Source of the DNA: Oscillospiraceae bacterium
GTDB taxonomy: Bacteria > Bacillota > Clostridia > Oscillospirales > Oscillospiraceae
DNA: 64,000 nucleotides
Direction of reading: 5' to 3'
NCBI GenBank assembly: GCA_017508045.1
Contig: JAFVZT010000028.1
Location: 1-64,000, forward strand
The position numbers were made by a program, and so were the translations under genes. The stretch's first letter is position 1, and every line of letters starts with the position of its first letter. Below the pieces are notes generated by a model. The model did no database searches and had not been told where the DNA came from. It saw nothing but the letters and a program-made list of their open reading frames with translations. This document shows, in pieces, positions 5,520 through 60,391 of this stretch.

Positions 5520-5849
5520 ATGAACAAGCGTTTAAAAATATTGCTGTGCATTTTATTAATTTTGGTTCTTATCGAAGCGTTAACGTTTGTAATTTATAAA
5601 TACATTAATCGTTATGATCCTAACAATTTTATTGGACTTACTGCGGAGCAGATCACTGACCGTTACGGTGAGTTTGATAGATATAGCTTTTGGGACTTGA
5701 ACGGAAATTATCGCGCGGGTGTATACACAGTCAAACCAAAACGTGTTGGCTTTCTTGGCACATATAATGAGGAGTACTTCGTGATCCGTTTTGATGAGAA
5801 AGGTTTCGCCTACGAATGCGAGTATGTAATAAGTGGTGCAGGTGGGTAA
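5520..5849 (+). CDS. Small membrane-anchored protein of unknown function
   Basis: 109 residues. One N-terminal membrane segment (about residues 6-26, LLCILLILVLIEALTFVIY) preceded by a positively charged MNKRLK, then an ~80-residue extracytoplasmic domain with GLTAEQITDRYGEFD and GTYNEEYFVIRFDEKGF. The latter resembles small SmpA/OmlA-like or lipoprotein-associated beta domains, but I cannot assign a family. It lies 79 bp after the duplicated lipoprotein, shares its AT-rich composition, and probably arrived with it. No strong Shine-Dalgarno is visible (GGAGTG about 8 bp upstream). Confidence 0.72.
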   Translation: MNKRLKILLCILLILVLIEALTFVIYKYINRYDPNNFIGLTAEQITDRYGEFDRYSFWDLNGNYRAGVYTVKPKRVGFLGTYNEEYFVIRFDEKGFAYECEYVISGAGG

Positions 5850-5973
5850 TAATCAAAGATAATTGTTCGTAAGACGAGAGGGACGGACGGCGCCGCTGCC
5901 CCCTATCTAACCTGTGTGGATGGTTCCCGGCCTGCTGATTACCCAGTCGACCCGGTCTATTTAAAGATGAACA

Positions 5974-53961: not shown

Positions 53962-54037
53962 TATGTTAGGGCATTTTATCTTGCCACACAGAACTTTTTG
54001 TGCTATGCTAATAAAAAAGCGACAGGAGAGGGTTTTT

Positions 54038-56299
54038 ATGAAAAAGGTTTTTGCATTTGCTATGTCAGTCCTTATTGTGTTTGCCTTATGCAGTTGCGGC
54101 ATCACAACGAGTGCTTCCGAAAATAAGGACGCTGATTCTAACCAGTCCGGTAATATCTCCTCCAACAAGAATCAGACCTTGGAAGATAAAACAACCTCTG
54201 AAGATGCCAAGGACTGTTCCCATTTGTGGTCACAATGGGAAGAAAAAACGAAGGCCACCTGTCAGATTGCCGGCATTAAGGAACGGGTCTGCCAAAACTG
54301 TAACGCCACCGAAAGCGAAACCGTCAAAGCAACCGACCACACAGAAAGTGACTGGATTGTAGAAAAGGAAGCCAAGGTTGGGCAAGACGGCCTGAAATAT
54401 AAAAAGTGCACCCACTGCGGCAAACGGATGCAGGAGGAAACGCTCCCTGCTCTCAAGGAAGACCACCGCCATGCAGTTGCCCAATGGGTTGTCACCAAGT
54501 CCCCCGACTGTACAAATAACGGCTCTCAAAACGGCATTTGCGCCTGCGGTCAGGTACTGGAAACCAAGGTCATTTCCAAGCTGGGCCATTCTCCTGTGAC
54601 AGACAAGAGCGTTGCCGCCACCTGTACCGCAAGCGGCCTGACGGACGGCAGCCACTGCTCTGTCTGCAGCACAGTGCTTACCGCCCAAGAAGTTGTCACT
54701 GCCCAAGGCCACAGCTTATCCTTCAAAACGGTTGCCGCCAACGGCGGCAAAGAGGCACATAAGCTTTATTCCTGCGCAAACTGTACCTACTCTTATGAAG
54801 AAGTTATCGATTCCACGGCGGTGCTTAAATTCCTTAGCAACAACGACGGCACCTGCAGGGTGACAGGAACTACAGACAAAACCGTCACAACCCTTATCAT
54901 TCCGGAAAAGAGTCCAGCCGGCGATACAGTGGTTGCCATCGGCGGCGAAGCCTTTAAAAACTGCGACGCCCTTGAAGCTGTGGTGCTTCCGGACACCGTT
55001 GTAAAAATTTTCTACGATGCGTTTTACAGCTGCGACAAGCTAAAAACCGTTGTTTTCCCCAAAAACGGCGCGCAAAACCTTGAACTAAATTATCAATGCT
55101 TTGCTTTTTGCGGCTTTGAGGAGCTTGATCTGACAAATGTAACGATGGAAACCGTTGGACAGCATGCTTTTTACGGCTGTAAGAGTCTGAAAACTGTAAA
55201 GCTGGGGGCGGTTACAACCATTGATAACTTTGCCTTTGCCGAATGCTCCGAGCTGGTTTCTTTGATCCACGCGGGCAATCTGGTCACCATCGGCGAGCGC
55301 TCCTTTGACGGCTGCAAGAAGCTGACCGAGCTTCGGGGAAAGAACTCCCAGCACAATCTGGACACCGTTCTGCAGTTTTCTTACCACTCCTTCTACGGCT
55401 CCGGTATTCGGGACATTGTTTTCAACAAAAATCTCAAAGGCACAAATAATGCCTTCGAGGGCTGTAAAAATCTGGGAACGGTGGATTTTTCCCAGGTCAG
55501 CTCAAAATTTGCATCCTTTTTCGGGTCTAAGATCGAGAAGCTCATTTTCCCCAGTTCTTTGTCAAGAATTCCCGACAACTGTTTCCGCAACGCTACCATA
55601 GATTCCCTTGTGCTGCCCAGTTCGGTTACAGAAATCGGAAACGGCGCTTTTGCGGAAGCAAGGATTGGCAAGCTCACCTTTGGCTCCGGGTTGACCCGTA
55701 TTGGCGCAAACGCCTTCAACGGCACACAGGCTACCTATGATTTTTCCCGGGTGACCCGCCCTCTCACCATTGATTATGAGGCCTTTGCCAACAATGATTT
55801 TACATCATTTGCCTTCCCTGAATCCACAGTTTTCATTGGTGCAGGCGCGCTGATGGGCTGCAATAAGCTGCAGATTTTGTCCATTCCCTTCATTGGTGAG
55901 GATGCGGAGGCCGGCAACGCGTCCACCCATTGTTTCGCATGGCTTTTCGGCAGGGATGTGAACTGCTGGGATCAAACCTCGGTGGTGCCGACTACGCTGA
56001 AAACCGTAATTCTCCACGGAGAAAATCCGGATGTCAGAGCCTTTATGGGTGTAAAAATAACTGCCCTTGTGGTGGGTAAGGATATTACTGCCATCGGCAA
56101 CGAGAATTTTAACTCCAGCAGCAGCCTGACCCGGGTGTACTACGAAGGCACGCAGCAGGAGTGGAATGCAATCACAAAAGGCACTTACGATAACCAAAAG
56201 CTTTCCTCTGCTGATAAGTATTTCTATTCTGAAACGCAGCCACCAACGGAAGGCAACTTCTGGCATTACGACGCAAACGGCGCCATTACCCTTTGGTAA
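54038..56299 (+). CDS. BspA-like leucine-rich-repeat surface lipoprotein
   Basis: 753 residues from the ATG at 54038 (AGGAGAGG upstream). Lipoprotein signal with Cys20 (ALCSC). Residues ~60-240 hold about five Cys-rich units, each with CxxC (CQNCNATES, CTHCGKRM, CACGQVLE, CSVCSTVL, CANCTYSY) in a T-C-T-x-x-G context common in gut Clostridia surface proteins. Residues ~260-690 are LRR_5/BspA repeats (EAFKNCDALEAVVLPDTV, HAFYGCKSLKTVKLGAVTTI). Likely host or matrix adhesion. The C-terminus (WNAITKGTYD) is a final repeat. Confidence 0.92.
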   Translation: MKKVFAFAMSVLIVFALCSCGITTSASENKDADSNQSGNISSNKNQTLEDKTTSEDAKDCSHLWSQWEEKTKATCQIAGIKERVCQNCNATESETVKATDHTESDWIVEKEAKVGQDGLKYKKCTHCGKRMQEETLPALKEDHRHAVAQWVVTKSPDCTNNGSQNGICACGQVLETKVISKLGHSPVTDKSVAATCTASGLTDGSHCSVCSTVLTAQEVVTAQGHSLSFKTVAANGGKEAHKLYSCANCTYSYEEVIDSTAVLKFLSNNDGTCRVTGTTDKTVTTLIIPEKSPAGDTVVAIGGEAFKNCDALEAVVLPDTVVKIFYDAFYSCDKLKTVVFPKNGAQNLELNYQCFAFCGFEELDLTNVTMETVGQHAFYGCKSLKTVKLGAVTTIDNFAFAECSELVSLIHAGNLVTIGERSFDGCKKLTELRGKNSQHNLDTVLQFSYHSFYGSGIRDIVFNKNLKGTNNAFEGCKNLGTVDFSQVSSKFASFFGSKIEKLIFPSSLSRIPDNCFRNATIDSLVLPSSVTEIGNGAFAEARIGKLTFGSGLTRIGANAFNGTQATYDFSRVTRPLTIDYEAFANNDFTSFAFPESTVFIGAGALMGCNKLQILSIPFIGEDAEAGNASTHCFAWLFGRDVNCWDQTSVVPTTLKTVILHGENPDVRAFMGVKITALVVGKDITAIGNENFNSSSSLTRVYYEGTQQEWNAITKGTYDNQKLSSADKYFYSETQPPTEGNFWHYDANGAITLW

Positions 56300-56343: not shown

Positions 56344-56526
56344 CTATATAGTTCCATTTGCCAGAGATGCAACAAGAGAATACATTTCCTTTTCACTGCG
56401 GACATTGTGGGACTTGTTCAGAATGTCCTGTTTTTGCTCTTTGGTCAGGTGGGCATAGCGGGTCATTGCCGCAGTGTTTTGTGAAAGTGCCAAGCCAAAG
56501 CCAATGGGAACTTTGTAGAAATCCAT
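56344..56526 (-). CDS. Small conserved Clostridia protein (60 aa)
   Basis: 60 residues, ATG at 56526 with AAAGGAG upstream. The pattern MDFYKVPIGFGLALSQN then MTRYAHLTKEQKQ and VRSEKEMYSLVASLA is one I recognise as a short, mostly helical protein widespread in gut Clostridia with no assigned function. No signal or membrane segment. Confidence 0.8.
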   Translation of the reverse strand: MDFYKVPIGFGLALSQNTAAMTRYAHLTKEQKQDILNKSHNVRSEKEMYSLVASLANGTI

Positions 56527-56552: not shown

Positions 56553-56672
56553 GATTCCTCGGCGCGCTACGCTAGCTCGGAATGACAGAGGAAGTAGGAT
56601 AGTCGCTGCAACCACCATTCATCTCTGTCATCCTGAGCGCAGTGCGAAGCACGAAGTCGAAGGATCCGTTCT
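56553..56672. repeat. Dispersed-type inverted repeat
   Basis: Arms GGAATGACAGAG and CTCTGTCATCCTGAGCG with flanking GAAGTCGAAGGATCC. This is the TCATCCTGAGCG...AAGGATC type repeat seen widely in Firmicutes. It separates the small conserved gene from the spoIVB fragment. Confidence 0.7.
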
Positions 56673-56676
56673 CTTT

Positions 56677-56799
56677 TTATGCGGCGGCGTCCAGCATGTT
56701 TTTAATGAAGATGCCATATCCGGTGGTAGGATCGTTAACAAGGACATGGGTTACTGCGCCCACCAGTTTGCCGTTTTGAATGATGGGGCTACCCGACAT
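56677..56799 (-). pseudogene. spoIVB 3'-end fragment, copy A (40 codons)
   Basis: Minus-strand ORF-like fragment [20 protein letters not shown] then [19 protein letters not shown] and stop, matching residues 283-322 of the intact SpoIVB at 59331 with three substitutions. Homology begins exactly at the Met before the catalytic Ser. Upstream sequence is unrelated to spoIVB but shared with copy B. No ribosome-binding site. Confidence 0.88.
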
Positions 56800-56988
56800 T
56801 TCTGTGTCAAGTGTGGGACAAAAGAATTTTGTGTTTTTCTGCGGAATTTATGCGTTTTTGCAGGTAAAAGGCAGGTTTTCACTCACCGCAAATGCAGTCC
56901 TTAAGTTGACATAGATGAATTGTCGAAAATACCGCTTTTCAAACATTCTCGATTTTTCGACAAATTCTAATATTTGCCGGACCGTCGG
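56800..56988 (-). repeat. Unit shared upstream of spoIVB fragments, copy A
   Basis: About 190 bp, from TGTCAAGTGTGGGACAAAAG beside the fragment to ACCGTCGG at the far end, homologous to 58762-58950. It contains ACAAAAGAATTTTGT (an inverted repeat), TTAAGTTGACATAGATGAA, and TTGTCGAAAA (56920-56929) facing TTCGACAAA (56956-56964), both like Spo0A boxes. Confidence 0.8.
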
Positions 56989-57056
56989 TGATTATTGATG
57001 AGAAAAATCCGTGTGATCTTAAAAAACACACGGATTTTTCTTTTACAAGTATGGAC

Positions 57057-58037
57057 TTATCTGCCTAAAATAGCCTTCTTTTCGGCATCAAACTCTTCTT
57101 GTGTTAGAATGCCTTCATCAAGCAGAGCTTTCAGCTCTCTTAATTGCTCCGCTTTACTCGTTTCTTGTTTTGGAGTATTTGTGGTTTCTTGAATGTTTTT
57201 TGCCATTGTGTTGCCTAATGCCATACCTGCACCCAATCCTGCCAAGCCACCCTTTTGTTTAGCGGCATCACGCATGGCTCGCGCTGTCTGATATTGCATA
57301 AAAGTACCCATATCACGACTTGCCATTCCAATTCCAGACTGCTCGTCGATTAGCTTTTCCACTTCTTCCGGAAGCGTGATGTTCTCGATGAGAATATCGC
57401 TGAATTGCACGCCAATGGCCGCAACTTGCTCGTTGAGCTTTTCTTGAATTGCAGTGGAAAGATTCCGGTATTCTGTAACTAGATCAAGTACGGCCATTTG
57501 GGATTCGCCTACAGTGACAGCAAATGCTTCTGTAACCAGAGATGACAGATATTCCACAATATCATATGTCATTACGATTCCCTTTGATCCAAAGACCTCC
57601 CGCATAAAGGTCGCAACATCCGTAATTCGGAAAGAAAACTTTCCGAAGGCACGCAGACGAACCATATTAAATTCGCCATCGCGTTTCATTATAGGATTCT
57701 TTGTTCCCCATTTATTGTCGATAAACTGTCTTGTGCTGACAAAATACAGGTCAGCAATTACCGGAGATGCGAACAAGAAAGGAAATGCCTTTAATGAGGA
57801 CAAAACAGGCAGGTTGTCGGTTGTTAATGTGTGTGTACCAGGGGAAAGAATATCAGCTAGCTGGCCGCCTTTTAAGAATACAGCGCACTGACCCTCCCTT
57901 ACAATGACTTTAGACCCCTGCTTTAACTCGTTGTTTCCGCTTTCTCTCTGAAACTTAAAAACGATAAGTTTATTGCTTATATCTTCGAATTCAATTACAT
58001 CTAAAAATTGATCTTTTACAAAGTCTAACAGTCCCAT
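57057..58037 (-). CDS. SPFH domain protein with C-terminal SHOCT domain
   Basis: 326 residues. N-terminal part DVIEFEDISNKLIVFKF, then the SPFH/band-7 core (about 40-230: VREGQCAVFLKGGQLADILSPG, FRITDVATFMREVFG), a Gly/Ala/Met-rich linker (about 255-280) and a short C-terminal SHOCT helix pair (LRELKALLDEGILTQEEFDAEKKAILGR). YdjI-like proteins of this build are membrane-associated scaffolds. AAGGAG start. Downstream of the TM2 gene by 9 bp; AT-rich. Confidence 0.92.
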   Translation of the reverse strand: MGLLDFVKDQFLDVIEFEDISNKLIVFKFQRESGNNELKQGSKVIVREGQCAVFLKGGQLADILSPGTHTLTTDNLPVLSSLKAFPFLFASPVIADLYFVSTRQFIDNKWGTKNPIMKRDGEFNMVRLRAFGKFSFRITDVATFMREVFGSKGIVMTYDIVEYLSSLVTEAFAVTVGESQMAVLDLVTEYRNLSTAIQEKLNEQVAAIGVQFSDILIENITLPEEVEKLIDEQSGIGMASRDMGTFMQYQTARAMRDAAKQKGGLAGLGAGMALGNTMAKNIQETTNTPKQETSKAEQLRELKALLDEGILTQEEFDAEKKAILGR

Positions 58038-58046
58038 ATTTGCTCC

Positions 58047-58421
58047 TTATTTCTTCAGCGGTAGATTGTTGCTGTCGGTAAACTTACCAATAGCGATACA
58101 AACCAAATCAATCAACCAACCAATGCAGAACAAGCCGCCGGTAAACAAGTAGAGAATGCCCTTACCTGTTCTACCGACATAGAAATAGTGTCCGCCAAAC
58201 ACGCCAAGGAAATAACAAATTGCCAAAGCTGCCCATCTGCTCTTGGGACTAATACTTGCCTGCGTGGGTGCAGACTGTGTATTAACAAAGATCTGTGTAA
58301 CCACAGCTGCAGCAGTTTTTCCGCCAGTGGAATTAGAGACGGTGGGATTTGTTTGAGGGGTGTATCCGCAGTAATCGCATGTGCTGCTTTCCATAGGGGC
58401 TCCGCATTTTGGACATTTCAT
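58047..58421 (-). CDS. TM2 domain protein with N-terminal zinc ribbon
   Basis: 124 residues. Zinc ribbon at residues 3-18 (CPKCGAP, CDYCGY), a polar Thr/Ser/Pro linker, then the TM2 domain (about 60-124): two membrane helices with WAALAICYFLGVFGGHYFYVGRTGKGILYLF and GLFCIGWLIDLVCI. Likely forms a pair with the SPFH protein. AAGGAGAG upstream and a near-consensus promoter. Confidence 0.92.
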   Translation of the reverse strand: MKCPKCGAPMESSTCDYCGYTPQTNPTVSNSTGGKTAAAVVTQIFVNTQSAPTQASISPKSRWAALAICYFLGVFGGHYFYVGRTGKGILYLFTGGLFCIGWLIDLVCIAIGKFTDSNNLPLKK

Positions 58422-58453
58422 AAAAAGCTCTCTCCTTATGTTTGATTTTTGTT

Positions 58454-58482
58454 ATTTTATCATGGATTTATCTGTTAATCAA
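58454..58482 (-). promoter_or_regulatory. Promoter of the TM2-SPFH operon
   Basis: Minus strand TTGATT (58477-58482), 17 bp, TAAAAT (58454-58459). Confidence 0.8.
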
Positions 58483-58503
58483 GCGACAAGAGAGTTTTTA
58501 TGT

Positions 58504-58528
58504 AACGAACGGTCTATGACCGTCCGTT
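58504..58528. terminator. Hairpin after spoIVB fragment copy B
   Basis: AACGaACGGTC / GACCGTcCGTT around TAT, overlapping the fragment's stop codon; no strong T run. Confidence 0.45.
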
Positions 58529-58761
58529 ATGCTGCTGCATTCAGCATATTCTCTATAAATATCCCATACCCCGTCGTAGGATCGTTAACAAGGACATGGG
58601 TTACTGCGCCCACCAGTTTACCTGTTGCGGTGCCCGATAAAATCTTCAGGCTTTTGCTTCTCCTCGATTTTATCGACCGCTGCCACTCGCTCAGCTCCCT
58701 TCCTCCGCCACCGGCGGCGGTCGCATCGCTCCCCGTCCTGGATGATGGGACTGCCGCTCAT
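58527..58761 (-). pseudogene. spoIVB 3'-end fragment, copy B, interrupted by a 112-bp insert
   Basis: Minus-strand sequence with the same boundaries as copy A: it begins at the Met-Ser-Gly-Ser-Pro codons (58761) and ends ...[12 protein letters not shown] stop (58527). A 112-bp insert (about 58621-58732) splits the region between the I-I-Q and K-L-V-G codons and shifts the frame, so it cannot encode a product. Confidence 0.85.
58621..58732. repeat. 112-bp palindromic insert in spoIVB fragment B
   Basis: GC-rich insert with inverted CGATAAAATC (58635-58644) and GATTTTATCG (58666-58675), and the palindromic stretch CCGCCACCGGCGGCGG. Small miniature-element-like insertion. Confidence 0.65.
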
Positions 58762-58950
58762 GCTGATGTCAAGTGTGGGACAAAAGAATTTTGTGTTTTT
58801 CTGCGCTTTTTATGCGTTTTTGCAGGCAAACGGAAGGTTTTTGCATACATCACCCGGAATCCCTAAGTTGACATAGATGAAATGTCAAAACCAGTCGCTT
58901 TTAAATTTCCTCTCACTTTCGACAAATTCCGAACAATACCGAACCGTCGG
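58762..58950 (-). repeat. Unit shared upstream of spoIVB fragments, copy B
   Basis: Homologue of 56800-56988, same orientation to its fragment. Keeps TGTCAAGTGTGGGACAAAAG, CTAAGTTGACATAGATGA and TTTCGACAAATT (58917-58928). TTGACAT (58868-58874) and ATGTCAA (58882-58888) form an inverted repeat here. Confidence 0.8.
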
Positions 58951-59053
58951 TTTATTTGCTCCCGGTACTTTTATTTGGACGGAATCTATGATACGTTATA
59001 TTTATATAATAGTTGGCGAAGTTTTTTGAATGTGCTACAAAAGGAGTGGGAAT

Positions 59054-59290
59054 ATGTATCACTTTCGTGATGTTATCTGCTATAAATGCAAACATAAATT
59101 TCTTCACATGAAAGACTGCGGGCCCGTCGGTTCTGAATTTTATGAATACTATTTAGAAAATAAAGATGAGTTGCTAGTGTACGCAACATGCCCTAAATGT
59201 TCAGCTGAAATGGTTCTTATTGGAGAATCACATATTGGTGTAGATCCCAATAGTGACGGGATAAAAAAGGAACGAGTTCATGGCATATAG
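59054..59290 (+). CDS. Small zinc-ribbon protein of unknown function
   Basis: 78 residues from the ATG at 59054 (AAAGGAG upstream). Two CxxC knuckles, CYKC (about residues 9-12) and CPKC (about 46-49), 34 residues apart, with polar, acidic sequence around them and no membrane segment. AT-rich like the SPFH/TM2 genes. Sits between spoIVB and its copy B fragment. No family recognised. Confidence 0.75.
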   Translation: MYHFRDVICYKCKHKFLHMKDCGPVGSEFYEYYLENKDELLVYATCPKCSAEMVLIGESHIGVDPNSDGIKKERVHGI

Positions 59291-59298
59291 GTCGTAAA

Positions 59299-59328
59299 GA
59301 ATACCCACACCATTGGTGCGGGTATTCT
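59299..59328. terminator. Terminator between zinc-ribbon gene and spoIVB
   Basis: AAGAATACCCgCACC / GGTGcGGGTATTCTT around an AATT-like loop; convergent genes. Confidence 0.82.
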
Positions 59329-59330
59329 TG

Positions 59331-60299
59331 TTATGCGGCTGCATCCAGCATGTTCTCGATGAAGATGCCGTAGCCCATGGTGGGGTCATTGACCAAAACG
59401 TGGGTCACCGCGCCGATGAGCTTGCCGTTTTGAATGATGGGGCTACCCGACATGCCCTGCACGATGCCGCCGGTGGCGGCTAAAAGTGCGGGGTCGGTAA
59501 TTTTTATCAGCATGTTCCGGTTGCGGCTGCCGGTGTTGGCATAGATTTTGAGAATCTCCACAGAATATTCGCGTAAGGTTGTGCCGCCTACGGTGCTGCG
59601 AATGGTGGCGCTGCCGGTTTTAATTTCATTTGCCTTCGCTACGGGCATGGCATCCCCTGCCACTGCTGCGGCAGATGCGCCAAAAACACCCCGGTCAGTA
59701 TTTTTCTTCAAGGTTCCCACAGGCGTTTGGGAGGTTACCGACCCCAACAGCTGTCCCGGCGTGCCGGGTTTTCCTTTTTTTACTGAAAAAACATTGGCAG
59801 AGAAAATTCTACCGGCTTCCAGACGAACCAGCTCCCCGGCAGAGGTATTCACCCCATGCCCCAGGGCAGCGAAGGTGTGGGTTTCCGGATCATAATAGGT
59901 GACCGTACCCAGACCGGTTGTGCCTTGCCGCAAATACACGCCCAAACGAGGACCTTCCTGGGTCAGCGGCGGGGTGAGAGTGAGGGTTTTGGTTTTTGCG
60001 CCGCGAACAATGGACAGCTTGACCTGCCCATCGGAACAGGCTAGTGCCTTTCGCACATCCTCGGCGGTATGAACCGGTGTGTTGTCAATTTTTAAAATCT
60101 TGTCCCCCTGGGCAAGCCCTGCGGCCTTGGCGGCATCACCTAGGTTTTCGTCAAAAGCGGCGATGGTGACGGTGTTATCCAGAAGCTCCAAGCCGATTAC
60201 CTGTCCACCGGGAATTAAGGTAGTAACGCCACAGACGCTGGTGGCGCAGATACCGATTATACAAAGCAAAATCAGCGATCGTACACAAAAGCGTTTCAT
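59331..60299 (-). CDS. spoIVB: SpoIVB serine peptidase (S55 family)
   Basis: 322 residues from the ATG at 60299 (AGGAGG 9 bp upstream; an ATG three codons earlier touches the ribosome-binding site). N-terminal membrane segment (about 7-24), PDZ domain (about 40-112: AAKAAGLAQGDKILKI), then the S55 domain with catalytic His148 (AALGHGV) and Ser284 (QGMSGSPI). Secreted from the forespore to trigger sigma-K processing. Shorter than Bacillus SpoIVB (~425). No spo0A follows, unlike most spore formers; two 3'-end fragments lie downstream. Confidence 0.95.
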   Translation of the reverse strand: MKRFCVRSLILLCIIGICATSVCGVTTLIPGGQVIGLELLDNTVTIAAFDENLGDAAKAAGLAQGDKILKIDNTPVHTAEDVRKALACSDGQVKLSIVRGAKTKTLTLTPPLTQEGPRLGVYLRQGTTGLGTVTYYDPETHTFAALGHGVNTSAGELVRLEAGRIFSANVFSVKKGKPGTPGQLLGSVTSQTPVGTLKKNTDRGVFGASAAAVAGDAMPVAKANEIKTGSATIRSTVGGTTLREYSVEILKIYANTGSRNRNMLIKITDPALLAATGGIVQGMSGSPIIQNGKLIGAVTHVLVNDPTMGYGIFIENMLDAAA

Positions 60300-60391
60300 A
60301 AAAATCATCCTCCTTGCCTTGTTAATATTCCAAAACTCATGATTTGTAACCGATGAAAAAGCCGAAAATTTTGTAAAATCTTTCCTGCCTA

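Follow-up and report, generated by a model that had tools for sequence, protein, structure and literature searches.

Integron cassettes are small units, often of one gene and without a recombinase, that are added serially at an anchor that stays usable. The skin element is an intervening element in sigK. Another sporulation gene, gerE, is the site of gin, an element described with three serine recombinase genes (PMC5595907). Streptococcus integrative and conjugative elements (ICEs), as presented in one report, have a triplet of serine integrases and disrupt mutT, traG or hsdM (PMC4701971). The staphylococcal cassette chromosome (SCC) family, found at orfX/rlmH, is described as including SCC-like remnants that lack ccr (PMC3637587). 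Among open-licence papers, we found none on spoIVB as a site of serine-recombinase or other mobile elements. Here, we analyse the spoIVB locus of an Oscillospiraceae bacterium (GCA_017508045.1). The stretch examined, hereafter the window, is the first 64,000 nucleotides of JAFVZT010000028.1; it is part of contig C19 in a genome of 1.46 Mb that is 76% complete. We consider it probable that the window contains a two-cassette array anchored in spoIVB, gained at codon 286 and mobilised by serine recombinases acting in trans.

The spoIVB array of the window

The window spoIVB gene (59331–60308, minus strand) is whole and encodes 325 residues with Pfam Peptidase_S55 and PDZ domains. A preliminary description of this DNA stated that the last 40 codons of the gene occur three times. 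Alignment of the copies bears this out. The intact 3′ end, with its stop codon, is at 59331–59453 (minus strand) and may itself have arrived with cassette 1. Displaced end B (58527–58761, minus strand) is split by a 112 bp insert at 58623–58734. Displaced end A (56677–56799, minus strand) marks the far end of the array. As had also been noticed, both extra copies break at the methionine of GMSGSP. This is codon 286 (59451–59453, minus strand), the breakpoint of all window copies and the insertion point. On the minus strand, each displaced end is preceded by a right arm. These arms, at 58762–58951 and 56800–56990 (both minus strand), are 78% identical over 185 bp and are the shared sequence of ~190 bp previously described. 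The half-sites of the arms are TTGTCCCACACTTGACATCAGC (58762–58783) and TTGTCCCACACTTGACACAGAA (56800–56821).

The cargo differs between the copies, and no recombinase open reading frame (ORF) lies between them; the preliminary description was right on both counts. Cassette 1 has an 86-residue, cysteine-rich, zinc-ribbon-like ORF (59030–59290, plus strand) without a Pfam match. Cassette 2 encodes a TM2-domain protein of 124 residues (58047–58421, minus strand; PF05154) and an SPFH-SHOCT protein of 326 residues (57057–58037, minus strand; PF13421 and PF09851). In the genome of the window there are no arm copies beyond the two (the next match is 21 bp) and, short matches aside, the spoIVB 3′ end was not found elsewhere. 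Outside the array, this genome has four Recombinase-domain genes, with 22–29% identity to the spoIVB-type enzymes considered below.

Copy A matches both the intact 3′ end and copy B at 100 of 123 nucleotides. For copy B and the intact end the figure is 89 of 123, with the 112 bp insert excluded. Despite 23 and 34 nucleotide changes, respectively, 37 and 36 of the 40 residues of the intact end are conserved in A and B. Ends once selected in other genes would be expected to look like this, which argues against a single ancient tandem duplication of the gene end that later acquired cargo. Such a duplication would produce direct repeats of one gene end, and five of 62 adjacent copy pairs are 96–99% alike. 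Conversely, the same codon and half-site are found with different cargo across many genera. Cargo, arms and 3′-end alleles vary between arrays, and 34 of 61 genus genomes are single-copy. Hence, the arrays are not one duplication common to all relatives, an outcome that the preliminary description had allowed for, and we regard this explanation as extremely improbable. Repeated insertion at one gene end, also proposed there, is supported and can be narrowed to codon 286.

Codon 286 and the half-site in relatives

The codon 286 breakpoint recurs in other Oscillospiraceae genera and in Lachnospiraceae, with different arms and cargo. Displaced 3′ ends at five loci of other genomes (L042, L043, L047, L048 and L049) also begin at this codon. 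Within the genus, the C-terminal stretch is present in 54 of 61 genomes, including that of the window, and 20 have at least two matches, some of which are weak or split between contigs. We collected 34 displaced copies by homology (41 rows, minus 7 in loci fetched through the motif below). Alignment starts from codon 286 for 22 of them; the others are degenerate or partial.

The half-site that ends the arm is TTGTCC-N16, so that TTGTCC is 22 bp upstream of codon 286. This hexamer is found exactly at −22 for 16 of the 34 displaced copies, and with one mismatch for another. The number expected is about 0.16. Contig repeats were omitted, 15 from this count and 24 from the comparison of adjacent copies. 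Locus L281, 99.98% identical to L221 over 6.8 kb, was omitted with the repeats though it is a separate record, and the repeats L080/L221 and L272/L354 were left in the half-site count.

Among 400 family genomes, the motif TTGTCC-N16-RTGWSCGGNWSNCC is matched once in each of 11, and its reversed control in none. The spoIVB 3′ end lies behind nine of these matches. Of the remaining two, that in G039 looks like chance and that in G296 has no SpoIVB match. A wider motif identified at least 118 stretches in genome_contigs. Among the matches listed, a SpoIVB C-terminal copy is directly behind the motif in 103 of 118 stretches, no more than 220 bp away in four more and elsewhere in the stretch in three (L233, L305 and L319); eight have no such copy (L220, L226, L232, L261, L266, L278, L310 and L320). 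The listed matches come from Oscillospiraceae, Lachnospiraceae and further Clostridia, some of them isolates. A cassette is carried by the cultured Fusibacillus kribbianus YH-rum2234.

The preliminary description had asked whether the ~190 bp unit occurs at many unrelated loci. As a rule it does not: among the matches listed for the 400 family genomes, arm rows adjoin spoIVB 3′ ends with one exception. This is a truncated window-type arm in G279 (contig C2; L046:1-260) that has neither half-site nor spoIVB end, in a genome where no spoIVB was found. The left part of the truncated arm resembles the cassette tail of G314 and G159.

Of 129 arms surveyed, a few of them repeats, 18 were classed as window-type under the cut-off applied and 44 have an end like ..TGACAATCACTC. 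In 20 window-type sequences the inverted repeats GAATTTGTCGAAA/TTTCGACAwTTC and TGTCAA/TTGACA are near-invariant. We rejected an RNA structure for the arm; since the repeats hardly vary and there is no two-sided change, protein-binding DNA is likelier. The TGTCGAA in this arm resembles a Spo0A box and is a candidate only. A Tn7-like end was also rejected, as the split genes show serine recombinases instead. Two scans of viral_contigs for arm ends gave no matches. Other such scans gave 27 and 19 stretches, with a SpoIVB C-terminal copy (E ≤ 1e-3) in 0 of 46. By eye, some viral_contigs stretches show TTTTGTCCC..ACTTGACA-like ends, which may belong to other elements. Of ten matches in phage records, nine contain a long match to spoIVB and resemble bacterial DNA, and MT836038.1 (L054) is the only junction.

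Large elements that split spoIVB

The half-site is the right end of elements of 50–108 kb that split spoIVB at codon 286 in relatives. In the human-faecal contig L054, three tandem genes for large serine recombinases end 43 bp before the junction. Genome G291 has a spoIVB that is broken at codon 286, with the 3′ end 94.7 kb further on, behind three recombinases. The two triplets pair 1-1, 2-2 and 3-3, with ~50% identity. The first L054 recombinase (L054:1007-2425) is ~76 catalytic-part residues shorter than its G291 homologue. In G291, the displaced end is followed by a response regulator, by eye a putative Spo0A. Ten proteins of the G291 element were scanned, and the matches included ParA-like, ParB, TrbL_4 (just over the cut-off) and TraG-type P-loop.

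Among the matches listed, a spoIVB-type recombinase ends 0.01–1.6 kb upstream of the junction in eight of the 118 stretches (L229, L236, L241, L272, L276, L289, L291 and L293). Where the stretch is long enough, three recombinases are in tandem (L236, L241, L276, L293 and L354). In six of the eight recombinase-bearing genomes, the 5′ part of spoIVB stops at alignment codon 287–289. As for the other two, spoIVB is whole in G529 and only the 3′ end was found in G531. Separate contigs hold the two parts of the gene in four of the six (G526, G528, G530 and G533). The parts are ~108 kb apart in Eubacterium sp. 14-2 and 50.5 kb apart in IMSAG_013. All seven left junctions, that of G291 included, read ATG-NNN-GTGWGTTATAATNNGGACAA. 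This left-end motif was found in one of the 400 family genomes (G291), and its reverse in none. Together, left end and right half-site form the imperfect palindrome GTTGTCC...GGACAAC around the core. The attP sites of serine integrases are imperfect palindromes around a core.

Because the half-site is shared with the large elements, and the left ends are alike in seven of seven cases, codon 286 serves as an attachment site for elements with a triplet of serine integrases. The preliminary description had recommended a search for co-occurring recombinases; large serine recombinases are what was found at the spoIVB-splitting elements of relatives. A triplet of such enzymes is most likely the class behind the insertions. 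Relatives of the third recombinase are in 81 of the 400 family genomes at E ≤ 1e-60, and a recombinase search of viral_contigs revealed triplets in six loci. In L140 (about 3137) and L146 (about 84), recombinase pairs or triplets with a TTGTCC..TGACA end are beside other genes. The TTGTCC half-site may characterise the recombinase family as a whole.

Proposed cassette movement and comparison with known systems

In the small elements the right half-site is kept, but the left end is a spoIVB 3′ end. Thus, a cassette would comprise the last 40 codons and stop of a spoIVB gene, cargo, and a right arm ending in the attachment half-site. Insertion would target codon 286, within GGIVQG-M-SGSP, at its TG dinucleotide, which is also the probable crossover point. 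The host gene would stay whole with the 3′ end of the cassette (B′), and the old 3′ end would be displaced downstream, behind the arm (P). We infer a reaction between BOB′ and POB′, rather than the usual attP and attB, that would regenerate both the intact site and the junction. As both are regenerated, the site would stay usable and the array could grow. The triplet-type enzymes of the large elements would be the most likely to move cassettes, acting in trans. Thereafter, the repeated 3′ ends would be deleted, swapped and turned into mosaics by homologous recombination with one another.

Exchange precise to the codon is seen in one close pair. Between L338 and L025, identity is 98.8% for the 330 nucleotides before codon 286 and 86.7% for the next 120; after the stop codon the two are unrelated (22%). 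The new stretch of L025 has an ORF that is Fic-like by eye; no arm follows before the end of the contig. Identity also drops behind codon 286 between L111 and L044 (91.5%, 85.0% and 36.0% for the same intervals). Movement is further suggested by a 692 bp cassette, 98.7% identical in L284 and L288. In L284 it is behind the whole spoIVB and in L288 behind a displaced end, and the downstream flanks are unrelated. Two genera (G314 and G159) share a cassette tail with ~90% identity across 310 bp. Many cassettes are shorter than 1 kb and bring a single gene of their own. Ten cargo proteins were compared with Pfam; five reach the cut-off (DUF4956, Fic, DUF4279, VTC and cyclase) and five do not. A module of VTC, DUF4956 and, by eye, a CotH-like gene occurs in cassette c2 of L066 and cassette c1 of L070, with a different gene order.

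The cassettes could instead be scars. A large element would split spoIVB, the 3′ end would be regained by homologous recombination, and the right end of the element and the old 3′ end would remain; repeats of this would build an array. Selection for sporulation would favour cells that regain the spoIVB 3′ end from other DNA. Large elements do split the gene at codon 286, and in L354 (G529) a whole spoIVB is followed by other DNA and then by a recombinase triplet plus displaced 3′ end; the left end of the element is missing. The native 60-residue gene that flanks the array is inside the first cassette in L065, and partly so in L070. There is also shared cargo that starts near the stop codon. 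However, scars do not readily account for the near-identical cassette at different array positions in L284 and L288, for the many single-gene cassettes below 1 kb, or for the switch between L338 and L025 at the codon itself. We judge the scar explanation unlikely, though it deserves consideration.

Other observations weigh against movement of cassettes by serine recombinases in trans. To our knowledge, recombination of the attB × attR-like kind is not standard for large serine recombinases. There is no spoIVB-type recombinase in the genome of the window or in 136 genus genomes, many of which are incomplete; the best genus recombinase has 36% identity, and 12 genomes have one at E ≤ 1e-65. Only two of five gene pairs with >80% identity, drawn from 101 distinct genes, drop behind codon 286. 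There is no drop for L025/L030 (89.1%, 90.0% and 22.0%) or L032/L033 (82.7%, 90.8% and 46.0%), and in L338/L030 the flanks are alike (88.5%, 90.0% and 97.0%). Genus-wide, array genomes do not have more deviant 3′ ends; this idea was rejected, as the means are 76–80% in all three groups, in the gene identity bins below 75%. Adjacent copies (37 intact-displaced and 25 displaced-displaced pairs) are 66–99% alike, too different for target-site duplication to be the rule. The stretches that L284 shares with L288, and L240 with L301, start close to the stop codon; the 3′ end has therefore been separated from its cargo. Finally, copy A equals the intact end over its first 32 nucleotides and copy B over nucleotides 31–74.

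From the mosaic 3′ ends and the switches near the stop codon it follows that homologous recombination between copies, which the preliminary description did not foresee, also shapes the arrays. It may delete the front cassette, leaving a hybrid end, or may be the main route. In the latter case, site-specific insertion would account only for the first displaced ends, and later spread would be mainly by homologous recombination between 3′-end copies and between arms. Besides the mosaic copy A and the switching of similarity near the stop codon, some cassettes are alike only in their left or only in their right part. Conversely, adjacent copies are mostly 66–92% alike and would be poor partners for homologous recombination, and several arm kinds end at the same base. 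We consider this route improbable as the main one, and continue to favour site-specific cassette gain.

The 112 bp repeat-like insert of displaced end B, with arms GATAAAATC/GATTTTATC, is also in L071 (about 5815–5925), at the same place in a displaced 3′ end. Hence, arm and broken 3′ end share a history in both genomes. The 60-residue gene (56344–56526, minus strand; no Pfam match) is native flank: in L071 and L074, too, it comes after the final displaced end. Between this gene and copy A is a repeat-like stretch (56555–56676; ..TGTCATCCTGAGCGCAGTGCGAAGCACGAAGTCGAAGGATCC..). A 778-residue BspA-type leucine-rich-repeat protein (53963–56299) adjoins the array.

Mobile DNA of gut Clostridia repeatedly inserts at codon 286, within a protease gene needed for sporulation. 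In Bacillus subtilis, SpoIVB is described as the key signal for pro-σK processing (PMC5894183). The large elements leave spoIVB split, which should stop sporulation unless they are excised; this is a possible reason why some gut isolates sporulate poorly. The small cassettes are a source of small, strain-specific genes of unknown function, and the locus points to a testable class of recombinase. We tentatively suggest, as somewhat less likely than not, that codon 286 is an integron-like platform run by serine-recombinase triplets. BOB′ × POB′ reactions would conserve both sites, recombinase-less cassettes, often with a single gene, would be gained and lost in gut Clostridia while spoIVB stays whole, and the SpoIVB C-terminus would be traded between species. 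Alongside integrons and SCC, minimal cassettes with a spare gene end would then form a further natural system of gene exchange.

The large spoIVB elements fit the triplet-serine-integrase ICEs, as these have been described, in having three tandem integrases in the same direction, a disrupted target gene and very short direct repeats. The target here is spoIVB, and the window cassettes differ in lacking a recombinase and leaving the target whole. Like gin and skin, the large elements (in G291 and in six of the eight recombinase-bearing genomes) are serine-recombinase elements inside a sporulation gene, whereas the spoIVB of the window is uninterrupted. The gin element is in a different gene and, as its report presents them, its three recombinase genes are not one tandem triplet. 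SCC resembles the spoIVB arrays in its serial elements at the 3′ part of one gene, some without recombinase, and in the large serine recombinases of its full members. However, SCC relies on ccr genes and on the final bases of orfX; here the gene is spoIVB, a 123 bp gene end is carried and cassettes can be below 1 kb. As in integrons, small recombinase-less units stand in series at a reusable anchor, but serine rather than tyrosine recombinases are implicated and the anchor is inside a protein gene. Thus, the kind of system is known; the target spoIVB, codon 286 and recombinase-less cassettes that restore the gene are new.

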